Assembly: GCA_013298715.1 (NCBI GenBank)
Contig: JAAFIQ010000007.1
Span: 90,661 to 154,660 of the forward strand
DNA length: 64,000 bases
Direction of reading: 5' to 3'
Source of the DNA: Bacteroidota bacterium
Lineage (GTDB): Bacteria > Bacteroidota > Bacteroidia > B-17B0 > Aurantibacillaceae
Part shown: positions 6,207 to 64,000 of the stretch, one piece after another
Layout of the letters: each line of letters begins with the position of its first letter
How positions within the stretch are numbered: position 1 is the first letter of the stretch
Made by a program: the position numbers and the translations under genes
The notes under the pieces: generated by a model
Told to the model about the DNA's origin: nothing
Databases searched by the model: none
Seen by the model: the letters and a program-made list of their open reading frames with translations, nothing else

Positions 6207-8474
6207 CTATTCTTTTTTCTTCTTTTTGTAAATTAAAAATAGTAGTACAGGCAGTAAAAATATATCCGCTAAAACTGCTACAATAACTGTGATACAAATT
6301 AAAAAGCCAAAATAAAAGGTGCTTTGAAAATCGCTCAGCATAAGACTCATAAAGCCTCCCATTAAAATAAAGGTGGTTAAAATAATTGGTTTTCCGGTTT
6401 CAAAATAAGTGCGTTTAAAGGCATACATTAAACTTTTACCATAATCTAATTCTATTTTTAAACGCGAAATAAAGTGGATTGTGTCATCTGTTGCAATACC
6501 AAAAGCAATGCTAAATACCAAAGATGTTGCTGCCTTTAACTCAATGCCCGCATAGCCCATAAAACCTGCTATTACAAGTAAAGGAAACACATTTGGAATA
6601 AAAAACACCAAAACCATACGCCAACTTTTATGCAGAAAAAAAGTCAGAATTGCAATAATAATTAAGGAAAAAATAAATCCTTGCACCATATTATCTACCA
6701 TGTATTCGTTGTTTCTATCAATTAAATGAGCGGCTCCCGTAATTTTAAAATCTAGTAAGCTTGTATCGCATTTGGTTGCAATAAATTGCATTAAATTTTT
6801 GTTTCGTTGGTTTATTAAAAGACTTCCCTCATCGCGAATTTTAGAACTGATGCGTGTTTGTTTTAAATCCTGTGTGAGTAACCTTTTTATCTCTTTATTT
6901 TTTTTATTCTCCTTTAGCAGTTCCGTGATGTCAAATAAATCATCGCCAATTGGCATCTTCATAGATTTTGTTTCATTTGCACTAAAATGAATATTACTAA
7001 TTAAACTAGGAAGCGAGAGCACAAACCCAGCCTTGTACTCATTTTTAATAAACGTTTCAACCTTATAAATTTCTTTTAAAACAGAGGTATCTAATACATT
7101 GGCTTTTTTGCAATTTACCAATATTTCAAAAGGTCTAACCCCGCTATAATAGTTGTCAAAAAAATTAAAGTCTTGTTTAATTTTAACCTTCTCACTTAAA
7201 TCTTCCAACAAAATATTGTTTACTTTAATTTTGGATAAACCATATACAGACAATGCAACAATGGCAATAGATGCAAGTAAAATTGTTTTTTGATTTCTAA
7301 AAATCCAAAATAAACCACCACGCATAAGGTTTGTAGTTTTGCTGTTTCCTTGATGCACTGTAATTAACTTTTTAGGTGTAAAGAAATATAAAATTGCTGG
7401 CAATAAGGTGTAACTCAATACAAATGCTATAACCACCCCAATTGAGGTGTATATTCCAAAATCGCGAATGGGTTGGATAGAAGAAAATAGTAGCGATAAA
7501 AATCCAACCACGGTGGTAAGCAACGTTAAAAAGGTAGGAAATCCAACTTCTTTTAAAATCAAGGGATAAATTTTTTCACGTGCAGTTCCTTTGGCTAACT
7601 CTTCAAAATACTTTGTAAAAAAATGCACCACATCGCTCATACCTGCAATAAAAACCATTGTTGGCAACATGGTGCACATTATATCTATTTGTTTTCCAAT
7701 TAAGCTCATTATACCTAAAGTCCATAAAACTGAGAGCAAAACAATGGTAATTGGAACAAGTATACCATACAAACTTTTAAAACTAAACCATAAAAAAATT
7801 ACTACTACGGCAAATGAAAGAATTAAAAACAGAGTAAATTCTTTTGAAAGGTTGGTTAAATAAACGTCTTGAGCGAAAATTCTTCCAACATAATGCACCT
7901 CATCAAACTTAAAATCATTAATCAATTTTTTTAAATTTTTTGCTAAATCGTCGCACTCTCTTTTGGATAGCACGTCCTCGGTTTTTATAAACACACTAAG
8001 CGATTTTCCATTTTCAGGAAAAAATGAACCAACCAGGTAATGCGAATTATAAATAGTAGCGCTATCACTTTTGTAGAGCGACTCGTCATCAATGTGTAAA
8101 ATTTTTGTTTGAACTGGAATTAAACCACCTAAACTTATGTTTTTTAAATTAGTTGGTGAATTAACTCGAACTACATGCTTTACACGCTCAATCTGTTTAC
8201 AAAAACTATCAACTTTTAATAAAAATGGCTTATTAAAAATACCTTTGCTATTCTCAATTGCAACTAGGGCAAACTCGTTGTCGTATTCAAAAGTTTTTCG
8301 ATAATTGTTATAAACCTCTAACTCATGATCTTCATTAGGAAAAAAAGATTCAAAATCGTAGTTAAAACTTAAATTAAATAATCGAAAAACGCTGAGAAGC
8401 GAAAAAAGTACAACAAAAACAAGTACAATTAAATAATATCTTTTTTGATTTTTAATGGTGCGCAAAATTAACAA
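6207..8474 (-). CDS. RND-superfamily (MMPL domain) transporter
   Basis: Two MMPL/SSD-like transmembrane blocks (IGKQIDIMCTMLPTMVFIAGMSDVVHFFTKYFEE; GIATDDTIHFISRLK). The start codon is uncertain. Confidence 0.88.
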   Translation of the reverse strand: MLILRTIKNQKRYYLIVLVFVVLFSLLSVFRLFNLSFNYDFESFFPNEDHELEVYNNYRKTFEYDNEFALVAIENSKGIFNKPFLLKVDSFCKQIERVKHVVRVNSPTNLKNISLGGLIPVQTKILHIDDESLYKSDSATIYNSHYLVGSFFPENGKSLSVFIKTEDVLSKRECDDLAKNLKKLINDFKFDEVHYVGRIFAQDVYLTNLSKEFTLFLILSFAVVVIFLWFSFKSLYGILVPITIVLLSVLWTLGIMSLIGKQIDIMCTMLPTMVFIAGMSDVVHFFTKYFEELAKGTAREKIYPLILKEVGFPTFLTLLTTVVGFLSLLFSSIQPIRDFGIYTSIGVVIAFVLSYTLLPAILYFFTPKKLITVHQGNSKTTNLMRGGLFWIFRNQKTILLASIAIVALSVYGLSKIKVNNILLEDLSEKVKIKQDFNFFDNYYSGVRPFEILVNCKKANVLDTSVLKEIYKVETFIKNEYKAGFVLSLPSLISNIHFSANETKSMKMPIGDDLFDITELLKENKKNKEIKRLLTQDLKQTRISSKIRDEGSLLINQRNKNLMQFIATKCDTSLLDFKITGAAHLIDRNNEYMVDNMVQGFIFSLIIIAILTFFLHKSWRMVLVFFIPNVFPLLVIAGFMGYAGIELKAATSLVFSIAFGIATDDTIHFISRLKIELDYGKSLMYAFKRTYFETGKPIILTTFILMGGFMSLMLSDFQSTFYFGFLICITVIVAVLADIFLLPVLLFLIYKKKKKE

Positions 8475-12433: not shown

Positions 12434-14827
12434 ATGAAAAATAACTTACTACTAACATCTGCGTTAGCTTTTACAATGCTTGCAAACGCTCAAAGCGGCA
12501 AAAAAGCAATCGTTACTAATGCCGACGTGTCCACTATCTCCAAAGAATTAATAAACGGCAGAGGGTGCGCAACTGCTATTCCGGGAGAAGAATGGAATAA
12601 ATGGTTTAACGAAAAAGTTGAAGAATTTGTAAAAAATCAACAACAAAATAAAACCCAACTACCAAATTATACAATTCCTGTAATTGTGCATGTTGTGCAT
12701 GGTGGGCAATCTGTTGGAACTTACCCCAACGTTAGTCAAGCGCAAATTAATTCTCAAATTGCAATTTTGAATAATGACTACGCCGGAATTGGATTAAACA
12801 ACGGAAATGCCCCTGCTCCTTTTGCTCCATTAAAAGCTAATTGTAATATAACTTTTTGTTTGGCTCAAAAAGACCCTACTGGCGCCACTTTGTTAGAACC
12901 TGGTATTGAACGCATTAACTATATTTCTAAAGGATGGGCTAACCCAACAACACCAACTACACCTGCGGCATTTCAAACATTCGTAAATGGTACAATTAAG
13001 CCAAATTCAATTTGGGATCCTACCCGCTATTTAAACATCTGGCTTACGGATTGTAATAATAACGTTGGTCTATTAGGTTACGCTACGTTCCCCGCAGGAA
13101 CAGGACTTGCAGGTGTGTCAAGTTTTTTAGGCACGGCATCAACCGATGGCATTTGGAATTGGAGTAGAGCATTTGGAAATGTTGGTACACTTCAAGCACC
13201 ATACAATCAAGGTAGAACTGCTTCTCATGAAATTGGCCACTGGCTAGGATTAATCCATATTGGTGGAGATGGAAATGGTAACATCGCTGGAGACTGCAAT
13301 GCTACTGACTATTGTGCAGACACTCCACCACAAAAAGGTGGATTTGCGAGCGGGCAATATGGGCAAAATTATGGTGCACCTACTTATCCTTTATATGCAA
13401 CAGGTTCAAACTCTTGTGCTGGTGCACCAAACGGCAATATGTTTATGAACTTTATGGATTATACCGATGATGCTGCAATGTATATGTTTACAAACGATCA
13501 ACGTACACGTATGCAAACTGCTATGGCAAATGGTACGTTTAGAAGTTTATTAACCACAAGCGCAGCCTCTTTATGTAATATACCTGCCGCAACTCCTTCC
13601 GCAAGCTTTAATATGGCTAGCAATGGGTGTATTAATTCAGCAGTTACTGTAAACAATTTAAGTTCTGGTAACCCAGTACCAACTTTTGCTTGGTCGTCAA
13701 TACCTGCAACTGGTGTTACTTTTAATCCAAATAACACAGCACAAGCACCAACTATTAATTTTGCAAATCCTGGTTCGTACACAATTACAGTGGTAGCAAC
13801 TAATAGTTTAGGTAGTAACAATAATAGTAAAGCAATAGTTATAAACAACTGTGCAGTAGCTTCAACTTGTCTTGATACATTAGTAAATTTTGACGGTAAC
13901 GATACCTTGAATGCTTTTAGAGCTGGTGCCGATGTGGCTGTAAACGGATGCTCACCAAATGCCGGATACATACTTGGTAACAATTGTTACGATGATTTAG
14001 AAAAAGCTGAATACTTTCCGGCATCAACTTATACACAAGTTACAGCCGCTCAAGCTACTGGTGTAATTGTGCTATTCTTTAAAAATGGTAGTCGTGGTAC
14101 TGGCGGAAATGCAAGTTCAGCCGTAACAATGCGCTTGTACGACCAAACAGTAAACACCTTTACAGGCACACCAAGCGGCATTAAACCTAATAACTCAATT
14201 GGAAGTGCTAGTACAACAATAGGAAATATTTTGGCGGTAACTTCAGTAAGTAATGTAACCTATTGTGGAAGTCCTAATCTAGCTTTCGGCACGCCAATCA
14301 TCAAACCTTTTAAATACACTTTTGCTACACCTATTAACTTACCTGCATCTGGCGGATTCTTTGCATCGGTTGTTTTACCAACAGGGGCGCAAGATACAGC
14401 AGTTATCTTTAATAACGGACCAAGTGCAGCAGCAAATCGTTCGTTTGAAAAATGGAGTAATAATGTTTGGTACGAAGTTAAAACTGCTTGGAGCAGCAAC
14501 TTTAATTATGCAATGGCTATTTTACCTATTATTCAATGTGCATCGGTTACTGCTATTTCAGACAAATCTATACTTAACACAAATATTAATTTGTACCCTA
14601 ATCCTTCAAGCGGTGATGTTAGCATTATTGCAACGTTGCCAAATGAACAAACACTTGATGTACAAGTTACAAATGTAATGGGACAAGTTTTATATGGTTC
14701 TAAATTTACAGGAGTTACTAACAACGTGTTCAACTTAAATTTAGGTGAATATAGCAATGGCGTTTACTTTGTAATCATAAACAATGGTTCAGAAAAAATT
14801 ACCAAACGTGTTATATTGAATAAATAA
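12434..14827 (+). CDS. M43-family zinc metalloprotease with PKD-like region and T9SS type A sorting domain
   Basis: HEIGHWLGLIH metzincin motif; C-terminal LYPNPSSGDVSI...NGVYFVIINNGSEKITKRVILNK. Confidence 0.88.
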   Translation: MKNNLLLTSALAFTMLANAQSGKKAIVTNADVSTISKELINGRGCATAIPGEEWNKWFNEKVEEFVKNQQQNKTQLPNYTIPVIVHVVHGGQSVGTYPNVSQAQINSQIAILNNDYAGIGLNNGNAPAPFAPLKANCNITFCLAQKDPTGATLLEPGIERINYISKGWANPTTPTTPAAFQTFVNGTIKPNSIWDPTRYLNIWLTDCNNNVGLLGYATFPAGTGLAGVSSFLGTASTDGIWNWSRAFGNVGTLQAPYNQGRTASHEIGHWLGLIHIGGDGNGNIAGDCNATDYCADTPPQKGGFASGQYGQNYGAPTYPLYATGSNSCAGAPNGNMFMNFMDYTDDAAMYMFTNDQRTRMQTAMANGTFRSLLTTSAASLCNIPAATPSASFNMASNGCINSAVTVNNLSSGNPVPTFAWSSIPATGVTFNPNNTAQAPTINFANPGSYTITVVATNSLGSNNNSKAIVINNCAVASTCLDTLVNFDGNDTLNAFRAGADVAVNGCSPNAGYILGNNCYDDLEKAEYFPASTYTQVTAAQATGVIVLFFKNGSRGTGGNASSAVTMRLYDQTVNTFTGTPSGIKPNNSIGSASTTIGNILAVTSVSNVTYCGSPNLAFGTPIIKPFKYTFATPINLPASGGFFASVVLPTGAQDTAVIFNNGPSAAANRSFEKWSNNVWYEVKTAWSSNFNYAMAILPIIQCASVTAISDKSILNTNINLYPNPSSGDVSIIATLPNEQTLDVQVTNVMGQVLYGSKFTGVTNNVFNLNLGEYSNGVYFVIINNGSEKITKRVILNK

Positions 14828-57877: not shown

Positions 57878-59287
57878 ATGAAAACAACAAAACCAAAAAG
57901 ATTTTTAACCTTACTAAAAGCTCAAAAAATTATTGTATTAGTTTGCGTTAGTTTATTAAGTATTAATGCCATTAAAGCGCAATCGCAAAACTGGTGGCGT
58001 ACTAGTGGCAACACGCCAGCTACAAATGAATTTTTAGGAACAACCAATAACACTGGCTTAGATATTAAAACCAATAATACACAACGCGTTTTTATTGATG
58101 CCAACGGCAGTATTAAAATTAATAGCTTTTTAGGAACTGGCTCTAGACTTTTACAAACAGATGCCCTTGGTGTAATAAGTCCGTTTATTATGGGTAATTC
58201 TAATCAAGTACTCTACGGAAATGGCACGTGGGGAGCCCTACCTGCTGCGGCCACAATTTTTACAGTAAATGGGAGTAGTCTTGCGCTGCCCAACACAACT
58301 ACGCTAAGTGCCGGTACACTTAGAAGTAGTAACTTATCTGATAACACTATTGGGTTAGTTTATGCAGATGCGGCTGGAAATCTTTTTAAAGGTCCAGGCT
58401 CAGGTAGTGGAGGGCCTAACGGAATAAACGCCCCTTGTATAAACGGTGCCTTACCATGGTTCACTGGCGGTAATATATTAAACTCATTGGGCTTTGATGC
58501 TGGAACTTGCAACAACTACGATTTTATATTAAAAGCAAATAACCTACCTTCTGTTTTTATTAAACCCAGTGGTTCTATTGGCTTTGGCGCAAATTTTACA
58601 AGCAACAGTGGCGACCCTGTGCAATATATTTTTGATAGTGGGATTTTAAGAACAAAAGGCAACAATGCATTTGGTGGGCCACAACTTGTGTTTGATGGAC
58701 CAATAAGCCCTTATGGCGATTGGGGTATGGAGTATACTGGAGGAACAAGTGCACCACAACCAGGCATTAACTTTTGGAAACCTTTTGGAAGCGCAAATAG
58801 CAACAACAATATTTTATTTTTGCATGATAATAATAAAATCGGTATTGGAACAGATAATCCAAGTTCAAGGCTTACTATTGATGCATGGGCTGATAATGCC
58901 TTGTTAATTTTAACTAATCCTAATAAAAATGTAATTGATGTGCAAGATAAATCTAACAATAAAATTAACTTTAGAGTAAAAGCTAATGGCTATGTATATG
59001 CTCGAGAAATTAATGTAATGCCTACTACGATTACTTTTCCCGATTATGTTTTTAATAAGAACTATAATCTAAAAACAATCAGCGAACTCGAAAATTACAT
59101 TCAAACAAACAAACATTTACCAAACATACCGTCTGCCAAAGAAGTAGAAGCAAACGGCATTAATGTTGCCGAAATGCAAGTAAAACAAATGGAAAAAATT
59201 GAAGAAGCATTTTTATATATTATACAATTGAAAAAAGAAAACGAGGAGCTAAAATTGCGCTTACAAAAGTTAGAGTCTAAACACTAA
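57878..59287 (+). CDS. Secreted protein with Bacteroidota tail-fiber/adhesin-like C-terminal coiled-coil domain
   Basis: C-terminus YVYAREINVMPTTITFPDYVFNKNYNLKTISELENYIQTNKHLPNIPSAKEVEANGINVAEMQVKQMEKIEEAFLYIIQLKKENEELKLRLQKLE. Confidence 0.75.
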   Translation: MKTTKPKRFLTLLKAQKIIVLVCVSLLSINAIKAQSQNWWRTSGNTPATNEFLGTTNNTGLDIKTNNTQRVFIDANGSIKINSFLGTGSRLLQTDALGVISPFIMGNSNQVLYGNGTWGALPAAATIFTVNGSSLALPNTTTLSAGTLRSSNLSDNTIGLVYADAAGNLFKGPGSGSGGPNGINAPCINGALPWFTGGNILNSLGFDAGTCNNYDFILKANNLPSVFIKPSGSIGFGANFTSNSGDPVQYIFDSGILRTKGNNAFGGPQLVFDGPISPYGDWGMEYTGGTSAPQPGINFWKPFGSANSNNNILFLHDNNKIGIGTDNPSSRLTIDAWADNALLILTNPNKNVIDVQDKSNNKINFRVKANGYVYAREINVMPTTITFPDYVFNKNYNLKTISELENYIQTNKHLPNIPSAKEVEANGINVAEMQVKQMEKIEEAFLYIIQLKKENEELKLRLQKLESKH

Positions 59288-59306: not shown

Positions 59307-62300
59307 ATGAAAAAATTACCTCTTTTTCTGCTATTGCTTTTGTTAGTCTCATGTTTTAGCAAAGCACAAACCCCAAATTATGCCCCTGTAAACGATACAA
59401 TTACTGTTAATAGATGGGAAGATGCAATGGAACTAACCTTTGGATTATTGAATAAATCAAATTTTCCTAGCGGTTATTTATTTAACAAAGCTAATCCATT
59501 ACCAAAAATTGATTATGCAAATGGAATGTTAAATGACAGCTCATTTAATATGACAGAATTTTATTATTTACTAAATTTTATAAAAATGAGTTATAATAAA
59601 CATGATAGTATTTTAAGTTACATAAAATTAGATAGTCTAAAAAATGTTTACATCGAAACAAACAATATTCTTCCATTGGGTTTAATTGATATTAAGGGGC
59701 AGGCGATCAAATATTCCGCTTTTGCCAATAGAAATATTAGCGTTGTAAATCATAGATTAATAGAAAATACAAGCGATGCAAGCATAATATATGAAAACAA
59801 AAGACTTTTCTGTGTTGCCCCATTAAACATGGAAGTTAATACACTAAATCCGCAATTTATTTTAAAACCAAATGAAATGTTTTCAAATTCAACTTTTTCT
59901 ATTAATGCTATCCAAATAAATCTTGACGATGGCATGGGTTATAAAACTATACAAATTAATGTTCCATTTCAAGCAAGTTATAACACAGACGGATTTAAAA
60001 TATTTACAACAAGGGTTATTTATAGTAACGGAGATACGCTTTATAGCAGAAGCGAATTAAAAGTAAATAATCCAAATATTATAGAAGTTTTAAGTAACAA
60101 TTGGAATTATTACGACTATACATATAATGTTTATGGTAATGGGAATAATCATTCTAACGGTTTTGGCGATTACCCAGTTGTTGAATTTACTGGATTAACT
60201 TATGATAATGTTCAAAACGATATTTACGCTCAAGTAGGTGTATGGTATGGTTGCGGCAATAATACAAACGGTTTAAGAAAGCCGTATATTATATTTGCTG
60301 GGTACAATCCCAAGAACGGTAAAGCACTAGAACCTAGCGGAGTTTCCTCTTGGATTAATCAAACTTTTGGGGCCTTAAACCCGTTTAATTGGCTAGAAGG
60401 ATGGCGTGGCCCTTTATACGAAACGTATAATGGATTTTTTACTGATTTTTCAAAGAATGCCCCTGGTCAAAGTTTTGGCGATAATGGTGCAAGACTTCTT
60501 GACAAATTGAGAAGGGAAGGCTATGATATTTGCATTGTTAGATTTAAAGAAGGAATTGGCTATTTGCAAACAAACGCTTATTTGGCTAGTTTAGTAATTA
60601 AAGAAATTAATTATAAAATACTTAATGATGCATATGGTTATAACATAATTGATGCTGGCGCCGCGCTTGACCCTGAAGCACCTGGTTATCCTAACTCAAC
60701 AAAAATTAAAAGGGCTAAACACGAGTTGGTGGTTGGTGGTTACAGCGCAGGAGCCTTAAGTGGAAGATTAGCACTTACGTTAATGGAATATGAACATAAA
60801 ATGCGTAACCAATGTACCTTTGAAACAGCTTGGAAAAGTACGCACCATCGCACAAAAATTTGGGTGGGGATTGACCATGAATGTCAAGGAAGTAATACCC
60901 CAATTGGTATGCAAATGTTTTGGGATTTTCAAGAAAGTTTACAATTAATTCCAGCAAATTTTGTTGATATAACCAATTCATTAATCAGTAAAAAAGCTTT
61001 AGAGTTATTAAATACTGGTGGAGTAGCAACTCAAAACACACTTTATAATATTTCCTCGTCTTTCGATCAAGGAGGCAGTTGGGCATTAAAACCGCATCAA
61101 GATTTTGTGAAATACTTTACTGATTTAGCAAATGTTACTTTAACAAGTACACCTCAAAATTTAAAAGGTTACCCAACCTTTCCTTACAGAATTTCTGTAT
61201 CTCAAGGCAATGCAAATGGAATTGAACAGACGATTAATTATAGCACAGATTTAGTATATAACCAGTCGCCAAGCTTTTGGTGTGTTAGCCCCCTTGGAAC
61301 ATCATTTGGAGTTGGTAATTGGGCATTAAAAGTTACACCGTTTAGAGAAGCAACAGCAAGAATAATTAGTAGTTGGAATAATGATGCTTTTGATTGTAAG
61401 GTTGGTATTAGCTTTAAAACTTTGTTTACGAGTTGGCATGTAAATTTTGGACATTGGAAATATTACACGCAAAACCCAAGTAATGATTGGTGGCTTGGTG
61501 GTATTGCAAAGCATTACGATTTGGCAGCAGGTAGTTCAATACCATCAAATTTAATTTTTGCAAATAATTTGCCTTTAGTTGCAAACACGCCAGGTGCTGC
61601 TGCGTTTACGTTTTGTAACCTTATTCAATTCCCAAAAAATCATATTGGTTTTAGCCCAACAGGCAGTGGTTTAGATTTGCATCTCCCAGGCCAAAATGCC
61701 CTACCCCGTTTTCCTAACCTTAGTATAGTGCCTGGTAATGTAAGCGGTGGCTTGCACTTGATGCAACAAAATAATTATAATAATGGAAATAACACACCAC
61801 CAAATAATGATTTTGGCTACCCACATTTAACTTTCCCCAACAACCATTACGATTACACACCTTACGATGCTATATGGGCCAATACCACAAATGATGCTAA
61901 TTACGACGATAACACCATGCATGTGGAAGACCCAAACCCTCTTATAGGTTCTTTTTTAACCGAAGAATTAGCGCCGCATACCTTGTATTTAAGCAACCGC
62001 CTAATACAGGATCAATTAATTTATTGTGGCGAAGATGCTATACGCCAAAAATACTATGCCGATTTTGAAGCCCGTAACTCCATTTTAGCAGGAGACCAAA
62101 GTATTTATGAGAATGACCCTACGAATAAATATTTAAGAAAACGATCTTCACAAGGAGATTTTGTAGTTGGTGATGGGGCTGTGGTAACATTTCATGCAAA
62201 TAATTACAATAGCACAAGTAAAATTACTTTGGGCGCAGGTTTTAGTAGCAAACATGGTAGTATTTTTAGGGCTTATTTATTTACTGATCCAAATTTATGT

Positions 62301-62660
62301 GAACCTTTTTTTTACGATAATGCAAAGCTAGCATCAAATAATCCGCAAGTATTTGAGCCAAAAAAACAAAGCAGACCAATTTATACCAAACGCGGTAATG
62401 CTTTAAAAATAGGTGAGCCAATTACCAAAATAAATATCATGCTATACCCTAACCCAACTAATGGCGAGCTAATTTATGTATTGAGCGATAATGTAGAATA
62501 TGATTATGAAATTACCAGCATTTTGGGGCAAACTTTACAAAGCGGTAAATTAAATACTCAAATAAATAAAATAAATTTAGAACAATTACCAAAAGGACTT
62601 TACCTTATTACTATAAAAAATAGTACTTACAAACAAACCGATAGAATAATTTTAGAATGA
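59307..62660 (+). CDS. Large secreted alpha/beta-hydrolase-like protein with T9SS type A sorting domain
   Basis: ELVVGGYSAGALSGRLAL (GxSxG nucleophile elbow); ITLGAGFSSKHGSIFRAYLF stack-like domain; C-terminal LYPNPTNGELIYVL...KGLYLITIKNSTYKQTDRIILE. Confidence 0.8.
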   Translation: MKKLPLFLLLLLLVSCFSKAQTPNYAPVNDTITVNRWEDAMELTFGLLNKSNFPSGYLFNKANPLPKIDYANGMLNDSSFNMTEFYYLLNFIKMSYNKHDSILSYIKLDSLKNVYIETNNILPLGLIDIKGQAIKYSAFANRNISVVNHRLIENTSDASIIYENKRLFCVAPLNMEVNTLNPQFILKPNEMFSNSTFSINAIQINLDDGMGYKTIQINVPFQASYNTDGFKIFTTRVIYSNGDTLYSRSELKVNNPNIIEVLSNNWNYYDYTYNVYGNGNNHSNGFGDYPVVEFTGLTYDNVQNDIYAQVGVWYGCGNNTNGLRKPYIIFAGYNPKNGKALEPSGVSSWINQTFGALNPFNWLEGWRGPLYETYNGFFTDFSKNAPGQSFGDNGARLLDKLRREGYDICIVRFKEGIGYLQTNAYLASLVIKEINYKILNDAYGYNIIDAGAALDPEAPGYPNSTKIKRAKHELVVGGYSAGALSGRLALTLMEYEHKMRNQCTFETAWKSTHHRTKIWVGIDHECQGSNTPIGMQMFWDFQESLQLIPANFVDITNSLISKKALELLNTGGVATQNTLYNISSSFDQGGSWALKPHQDFVKYFTDLANVTLTSTPQNLKGYPTFPYRISVSQGNANGIEQTINYSTDLVYNQSPSFWCVSPLGTSFGVGNWALKVTPFREATARIISSWNNDAFDCKVGISFKTLFTSWHVNFGHWKYYTQNPSNDWWLGGIAKHYDLAAGSSIPSNLIFANNLPLVANTPGAAAFTFCNLIQFPKNHIGFSPTGSGLDLHLPGQNALPRFPNLSIVPGNVSGGLHLMQQNNYNNGNNTPPNNDFGYPHLTFPNNHYDYTPYDAIWANTTNDANYDDNTMHVEDPNPLIGSFLTEELAPHTLYLSNRLIQDQLIYCGEDAIRQKYYADFEARNSILAGDQSIYENDPTNKYLRKRSSQGDFVVGDGAVVTFHANNYNSTSKITLGAGFSSKHGSIFRAYLFTDPNLCEPFFYDNAKLASNNPQVFEPKKQSRPIYTKRGNALKIGEPITKINIMLYPNPTNGELIYVLSDNVEYDYEITSILGQTLQSGKLNTQINKINLEQLPKGLYLITIKNSTYKQTDRIILE
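62565..62660 (+). repeat. Copy 1 of the duplicated sorting-domain tail (32 codons)
   Basis: NKINLEQLPKGLYLITIKNSTYKQTDRIILE*; matches 63405-63500 at an offset of exactly 840 bp. Confidence 0.9.
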
Positions 62661-63364
62661 AAAAATTAATTTTAATACTTTTGCCAATATTAATTATTCT
62701 TACTGCGTGTCGTAAAAAAAGTGATATTAGCATTACTGCCTGGAATTATGCCTTAGCCGAACCTATAGCTGGTGCAGAAATTGCAATTTTTGAGGTAGAA
62801 TATCAAGGTGGTTTGTTCAATCCTGGTATTAACTGTAAAGAAATTGCACACGCTACAACCGACAATAATGGTAAATGCATTTTTAACGATTTAAAATTGA
62901 AAAAAAATAAAAAACTACAACACGCTGCCAAAATTAAATATGCTTATGGTAAAGAGCAATTTTATAATTGTAATGTAACTAAGAACAGCGAAGTAAAGTT
63001 AGGTAACAACAATTTAATTCTAAACTCAAGCGACTTCAGTTGTTTTTTTAAAGTGCAATACAATAATTTATTAACCCCTTCGCAACTTGGTGATAGTTTG
63101 ATTGTGTCATTATCCACACCCAAATACGAAGTGCCAGGTCAACCTTATCCCTTTGGGGGGGGGGGGGTATTTGGTGCATCGCCTTATTATGGTTGTAACG
63201 GGTTTCCTTTTCCAATACAATTTCAAATTGATGAGATAAAAAAATCAAACGCTGGCAAGCATGTTCTAAAAATATATAAAAAGAAAATGGGTATTGTAAG
63301 TCAAACAATAGATACAGTAAAAATATACCCATACGAAACTAAAACAATTGAGATAAATTGGTAG
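62657..63364 (+). CDS. Small lipoprotein containing a G13 homopolymer tract
   Basis: MKKLILILLPILIILTACRKKSD lipobox. ATGA overlap with the upstream T9SS gene. Codons 167-170 are GGG x4 followed by GTA. Confidence 0.85.
   Translation: MKKLILILLPILIILTACRKKSDISITAWNYALAEPIAGAEIAIFEVEYQGGLFNPGINCKEIAHATTDNNGKCIFNDLKLKKNKKLQHAAKIKYAYGKEQFYNCNVTKNSEVKLGNNNLILNSSDFSCFFKVQYNNLLTPSQLGDSLIVSLSTPKYEVPGQPYPFGGGGVFGASPYYGCNGFPFPIQFQIDEIKKSNAGKHVLKIYKKKMGIVSQTIDTVKIYPYETKTIEINW
63155..63167 (+). repeat. G13 mononucleotide tract (candidate phase-variation switch)
   Basis: CTTT-GGGGGGGGGGGGG-TATTTGG read directly in a strongly AT-rich background. Confidence 0.9.
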
Positions 63365-63404: not shown

Positions 63405-63500
63405 AATAAAATAATTTTACTAACTTTACCTAAAGAGGTGTATTTAATTACTATAAAAAACACTACCTACACCCAAACCGATAGAATTATTTTAGAATGA
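63405..63500 (+). pseudogene. Remnant of a duplicated T9SS sorting-domain gene (last 32 codons)
   Basis: NKIILLTLPKEVYLITIKNTTYTQTDRIILE* aligns with the C-terminus of the 59307..62660 product. Ends in the same ATGA overlap with the following lipoprotein ATG. Confidence 0.85.
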
Positions 63501-64000
63501 AAAAATTAATTTTTTTAATACCAGTAATAATTTTATTATGCACTTGCCGCAAAAAAAGCGACATAAGTATTACCGCTTGGAACTACTCCATGGGCGAGCC
63601 TATTGCCAATGCGGAAGTAGGTATTTTTGAAGTAGAATACCACGGCGGTTTATTTAATGCAGGCACTAATTGTAAAGAGGTGGCACACGCCACCACCGAC
63701 CAAAATGGCAATTGTATTTTTAACGATGTAAAATTAAAGAAAAATAAAAAAGTGCAGTATGCGGCAAAAATTAAATACAGTTATGGTAAAGATGATTTTT
63801 ACAATTGTAATGTTACCGAGAATAGTGAAGTCAAACTTGGCAATCATAACTTAATTCTAAACTCTAGTGATTACACGGCGTATGTTTTAGTTCATTTCAA
63901 CAACATTTTAAATCCTTCAATTGCTGGAGATAGTTTATGGTGTATTTTAAAGACAAGGCAATACTCTCTTCCCGAGAGTCCTTATCCATATGGGGGGGGG
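63497..64000 (+). CDS. Second small lipoprotein, paralog of 62657..63364 (3' end outside window)
   Basis: MKKLIFLIPVIILLCTCRKKSDISITAWNYSMGEPIANAEVGIFEVEYHGGLFNAGTNCKEVAHATTDQNGNCIFNDVKLKKNKK...SPYPYGGG; open to the window end, so missing from the supplied ORF track. Confidence 0.88.
   Translation, partial: MKKLIFLIPVIILLCTCRKKSDISITAWNYSMGEPIANAEVGIFEVEYHGGLFNAGTNCKEVAHATTDQNGNCIFNDVKLKKNKKVQYAAKIKYSYGKDDFYNCNVTENSEVKLGNHNLILNSSDYTAYVLVHFNNILNPSIAGDSLWCILKTRQYSLPESPYPYGGG
63992..64000 (+). repeat. Poly-G tract (at least 9 G, cut by window end) in the second lipoprotein
   Basis: TATCCATAT-GGGGGGGGG at the codon homologous to the first tract (codon 166 versus 167). Confidence 0.85.

Follow-up and report, generated by a model that had tools for sequence, protein, structure and literature searches.

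Poly-G and poly-C contingency loci are described in Neisseria, Campylobacter and Helicobacter, where pure tracts of about 8-16 bases lie in or at the start of genes for exported proteins, one-base changes break the reading frame and both ON and OFF copies are found. The locus analysed in this study is like them in each of these respects and differs in belonging to uncultured, probably free-living Bacteroidota, in residing in an unnamed lipoprotein family and in being known from assemblies alone. In Helicobacter canadensis, C-terminal phase variation was proposed for 3'-ward poly-G tracts of at least 10 (PMC2823697). A poly-G tract of at least 10 toward the 3' end of the gene, with an altered C-terminus, is also found here; in contrast to H. 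canadensis, the short alternative ends break a predicted domain, and tandem paralogues as well as other species share the tract. Bacteroides, in the same phylum, reversibly controls exposed structures (capsule and others) by phase variation, but through DNA inversion and not tract slippage; in the passages located in a 2025 review, Bacteroides is mentioned for inversion-type systems (PMC11868660). No case of homopolymer phase variation in Bacteroidota came up in the open-licence literature searched. The slipped-strand mechanism is of a known kind; its use in Bacteroidota, in an unnamed lipoprotein family and as a multi-gene set appears to be new within that literature.

The G13 tract and the lipoprotein gene

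The window analysed is a 64 kb stretch of DNA from a genome of 4.01 Mb (G000; relatives are coded G001 onward). All tract lengths are assembly consensus values. The features at the centre of the analysis are as follows.

62657..63364, + strand: gene g1, lipoprotein of 235 aa with lipobox LTAC and two predicted beta-sandwich domains
63155..63167, + strand: G13 tract, candidate contingency locus, g1 codons 167-170 (GGGG), assembled in frame (ON)

The run of thirteen Gs claimed in the preliminary description is real and lies within the 235 aa ORF, in the peptide context PYPF-GGGG-VFGASPYYG. Recomputation of the ORFs for each tract length revealed that 10, 13 or 16 Gs give proteins of 234, 235 or 236 aa, respectively, that 11 or 14 Gs give 179 or 180 aa ending in IWCIALLWL and that 12 or 15 Gs give 193 or 194 aa ending in FKLMR, exactly reproducing the outcomes given earlier for 12, 13 and 14 Gs. 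Losing one G would shorten the 235 aa protein to 193 aa and gaining one would shorten it to 180 aa, as in a contingency locus. Only two runs of G or C of at least 6 are present in the window, at 63155-63167 and 63992-64000, and GGG makes up 10% of the glycine codons in its long ORFs. Because the only two such runs are these tracts, and because runs exceed Markov expectation genome-wide (see below), the G13 tract is not a product of chance.

Inspection of g1 revealed a signal peptide and a lipobox cysteine (MKKLILILLPILIILTAC). Known surface lipoproteins of Bacteroidota carry an acidic export signal, K-(D/E)2, SDDDD or SDDFE (PMC5080379); compared with these, the mature N-terminus of g1 (CRKKSD) has no acidic lipoprotein export signal at positions +2 to +6. 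Surface exposure of g1 is therefore not established, so that the earlier label of a surface-type lipoprotein is supported by half, for the lipid anchor. Lineages outside those with known acidic signals may rely on different ones. Comparison of g1 with Pfam and NCBIfam gave no match above cut-off, and with PDB sequences no notable match. The structure model (pLDDT 79, pTM 0.70) places two beta-sandwich domains behind the lipid anchor, and a fold search returned generic prealbumin/pilin-like beta domains only, with TM-scores of at most 0.36 among the matches listed. In the model the tract encodes the loop and first part of a strand midway through the second domain; slippage would thus break this domain and spare the anchor and the first domain. 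Phage origin of g1 was considered and rejected: viral contigs contained no relatives, and comparison with PHROGs gave no convincing match.

Homologues and gene neighbourhood

The lipoprotein is present in 10 of the 40 genomes of the genus (source genome counted) and in none of 60 more distant relatives, and the motif PYPFGGGG is largely conserved among its homologues. The homologue alignment proposed in the preliminary description revealed pure-G tracts at the g1 tract codon in six copies from three species, one of them frame-shifted. Their lengths are 13 (g1) and at least 9 (tandem paralogue g2), 10 on contig C7 of G014, 12 and 12 on contig C11 of the same genome and 10 in copy b of G015; four copies are ON, one is OFF and g2 is cut by the contig end. 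The same GGGG peptide is encoded by mixed glycine codons in G018, G015 copy a, G022 and G013, which indicates that the tract was gained and lost and is not universal. Mixed codons had been named beforehand as evidence against a switch; they apply to these four copies and not to the six with pure G. Switchable and locked copies coexist, even inside one genome (G015).

The OFF copy is the second one on G014 contig C11. It is out of frame at 12 Gs, a single base away from restoration, would be ON at 10 or 13 and has a total length of 213 aa as assembled. The 63 codons behind its tract are intact in another frame with a dN/dS of about 0.17, about equal to the value of 0.19 between in-frame copies; by this measure the downstream part is still under purifying selection.

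The neighbourhood of g1 comprises the following features.

59307..62660, + strand: type IX secretion cargo of 1117 aa with Por_Secre_tail, directly upstream of g1
63426..63500, + strand: 24-codon remnant duplicated from the cargo-gene end (LPKEVYLITIKNTTYTQTDRIILE and stop), overlapping the start of g2
63497..64000, + strand: tandem paralogue g2, 70% identical to g1, cut by the contig end
63992..64000, + strand: second poly-G tract, at least 9 Gs, at the same codon as G13 in g2; the contig ends within it

The g1 ATG overlaps the stop of the cargo gene (ATGA), and a type IX cargo gene also lies directly upstream of the lipoprotein in G014, G015 and G022; type IX sorting tails number about 150 in the source genome. 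Since the duplicated cargo-gene end precedes g2, it follows that g2 arose by tandem duplication. Its tract was missed in the preliminary description. At the start of contig C34 (L037:125-217) a remnant of 31 codons shares 94% identity with the C-terminus of the lipoprotein and adjoins a tract-less relative at 30% identity (247-954); this contig may come after C44 in the tandem array.

G/C runs across the genome

Analysis of the 4.01 Mb genome revealed seven G/C runs of at least 10, against 0.06 (order 3) to 0.39 (order 1) expected from Markov models fitted to this DNA itself; for runs of at least 13 the genome-wide expectation is at most 0.003. Six of the seven sit in two families of exported proteins, the lipoprotein and an adhesin-like family in which poly-C is placed between the ATG and the signal peptide. 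The loci of this 5'-tract family in the source genome are L040, L042, L043, L045 and L049, with contig ends at L039 and L048, and one tract-less member is present in the window.

57878..59287, + strand: tract-less, in-frame member of the adhesin-like 5'-tract family of exported proteins (QSQNWWRTSGNTP)

Four C10 tracts and one C8 (C23:210149) were found in the 5'-tract genes of the source genome. All five fully assembled genes are OFF (15-29 aa), and a shift of one or two bases would restore 238-712 aa; their downstream ORFs are intact, with dN/dS of 0.11-0.41. One further gene is split at its tract between contigs C14 and C12, whose ends we infer from the flanks to belong to one gene. In sister genes of G040 and G060, tracts of 12 or 16 Cs give the ON state and tracts of 10-14 Cs the OFF state. 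All six tracts of at least 10 in G014 fall in the same two families, the contig-end one (C16) being assigned by its flank only. In G060 (L180:2302-2317, 7654-7667 and 13704-13717) overlapping starts in two frames, ATGTATG, immediately precede the poly-C, so that translation could proceed in two of the three tract phases, as it does in contingency genes with multiple starts.

The seventh run lies near the 3' end of a gene for a Cro/C1-type HTH regulator.

L038:6092-6103 (C34:205398-205409), - strand: tract of 12 Cs in the HTH regulator gene

As assembled, the regulator has 89 aa, and 10 or 13 Cs would give 115-116 aa; the longer form likely has a coiled-coil tail. It is a candidate phase-variable regulator. 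Runs of 8-9 Gs in the source genome (for example in ClpP-like and nucleotidyltransferase-like genes) look like ordinary glycine/proline codons and were excluded as switches. A G8 run in a 2187-codon RHS/SpvB-like ORF (L040, contig C12:96543-96550), about 200 codons before its end, has a length expected by chance.

Readings of the tract and occurrence in the class

Overall, our analysis suggests that the G13 run is probably a slipped-strand phase variation tract and part of a multi-gene set of switches. The switch proposed in the preliminary description is supported by same-codon tracts of differing length, a natural OFF copy and five poly-C switches in the same genome. During replication the run would gain or lose a G at a presumably high rate. 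Lengths of 10, 13 or 16 Gs would yield the whole lipoprotein, and other lengths would break the frame midway through the second beta-sandwich domain, giving a product of 179-194 aa. This product would keep the lipid anchor and the first domain but not the final strands or the conserved KKKMG...TIEINW terminus; a subsequent slip could restore the frame, presumably also in living cells. The proposed ON/OFF toggling holds as far as the frame breaks, but the off form would be a truncated, still lipid-anchored protein without its second beta domain and not complete absence. The broken form of g1 is taken as OFF for the function of the second domain, which the short form would be expected to lose. 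The tract sits in a cassette that consists of a type IX secreted protein and, behind it, one or two of these lipoproteins. It would be one of a larger group of poly-G/C switches in genes for exported proteins of the lineage, with a putative role at the surface and a presumed selective benefit. Contigs break at three tracts, which also counts for phase variation, and the breaks are only suggestive of length variation within one population. Against this reading, four of the five length-resolved tract-bearing lipoprotein copies are ON, several homologues have mixed glycine codons or no tract, ON/OFF control less often relies on a tract towards the 3' end and the mature N-terminus of g1 has no known surface export signal.

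The in-frame majority, together with a GGGG peptide that is conserved even where codons are mixed, would fit a hypermutable but non-adaptive tract, in which a flexible Gly4 loop is needed, chance GGG codons were lengthened by slippage and frame changes are merely harmful. We consider this unlikely, as GGG is a minority glycine codon, pure tracts of at least 10 recur both among three species and between tandem copies, the frame-shifted copy retains its conserved downstream frame and switch-like tracts occur in a second exported family of the same genome that has no Gly loop. Alternative C-termini could also be functional variants instead of an off state. The late position of the tract (codon 167 of 235), as in the H. 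canadensis cases (PMC2823697), and the fairly long alternative end of the G014 OFF copy are in keeping with such switching; it is nevertheless improbable, since most alternative ends are short (the glycines are followed by about 3-45 aa) and unrelated between homologues, and they interrupt the predicted beta domain halfway.

Both products could also arise from one DNA length if transcription slipped, or ribosomes shifted frame, at the tract. Long homopolymers can cause slippage, but the usual sites are A/T runs (PMC3711429), and tract length differs among homologues with no fixed shift distance kept, which makes this explanation very improbable. An assembly or two-colour sequencing artefact was considered because G/C runs of 82, 94 and 53 occur at contig ends in G034, G025 and G038, respectively, these being probably two-colour artefacts, and because the g2 tract is itself at a contig end. 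For the G13 tract, which is internal with conserved coding sequence on both flanks, an artefact is hardly conceivable and was rejected, since independent assemblies carry the tract at the same codon; caution is kept for contig-end runs.

Whether poly-C adhesin-like genes, the poly-G type IX-coupled lipoprotein and the HTH regulator together provide combinatorial surface variation in free-living bacteria of this lineage, and perhaps of much of the class, is an evenly balanced question. If true, a multi-gene set of tract switches on exported proteins in environmental Bacteroidota would suggest that phage or predator pressure, besides host immunity, maintains such loci, and it would help to explain contig breaks or apparently frame-shifted genes at G/C runs in these genomes.

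Other families of the class likewise often have tracts of at least 10, some of them at the starts of exported proteins. In G086, from another family, several long ORFs for exported proteins have poly-C of 10-12 close to their starts (L193, L194 and L200), which suggests that the tract habit extends across the class. A separate protein family has mid-gene poly-G at a homologous position in two species, with 16 Gs in L072 (G001) and 12 Gs in L080 (G011), both out of frame. Two runs of 12-13 Cs in G015 (L164:2350-2361 and L169:2294-2306) lie outside long ORFs with similar flanks (aatt before the Cs and acaataaacccc after them) and are possibly promoter-located tracts or a repeated element.
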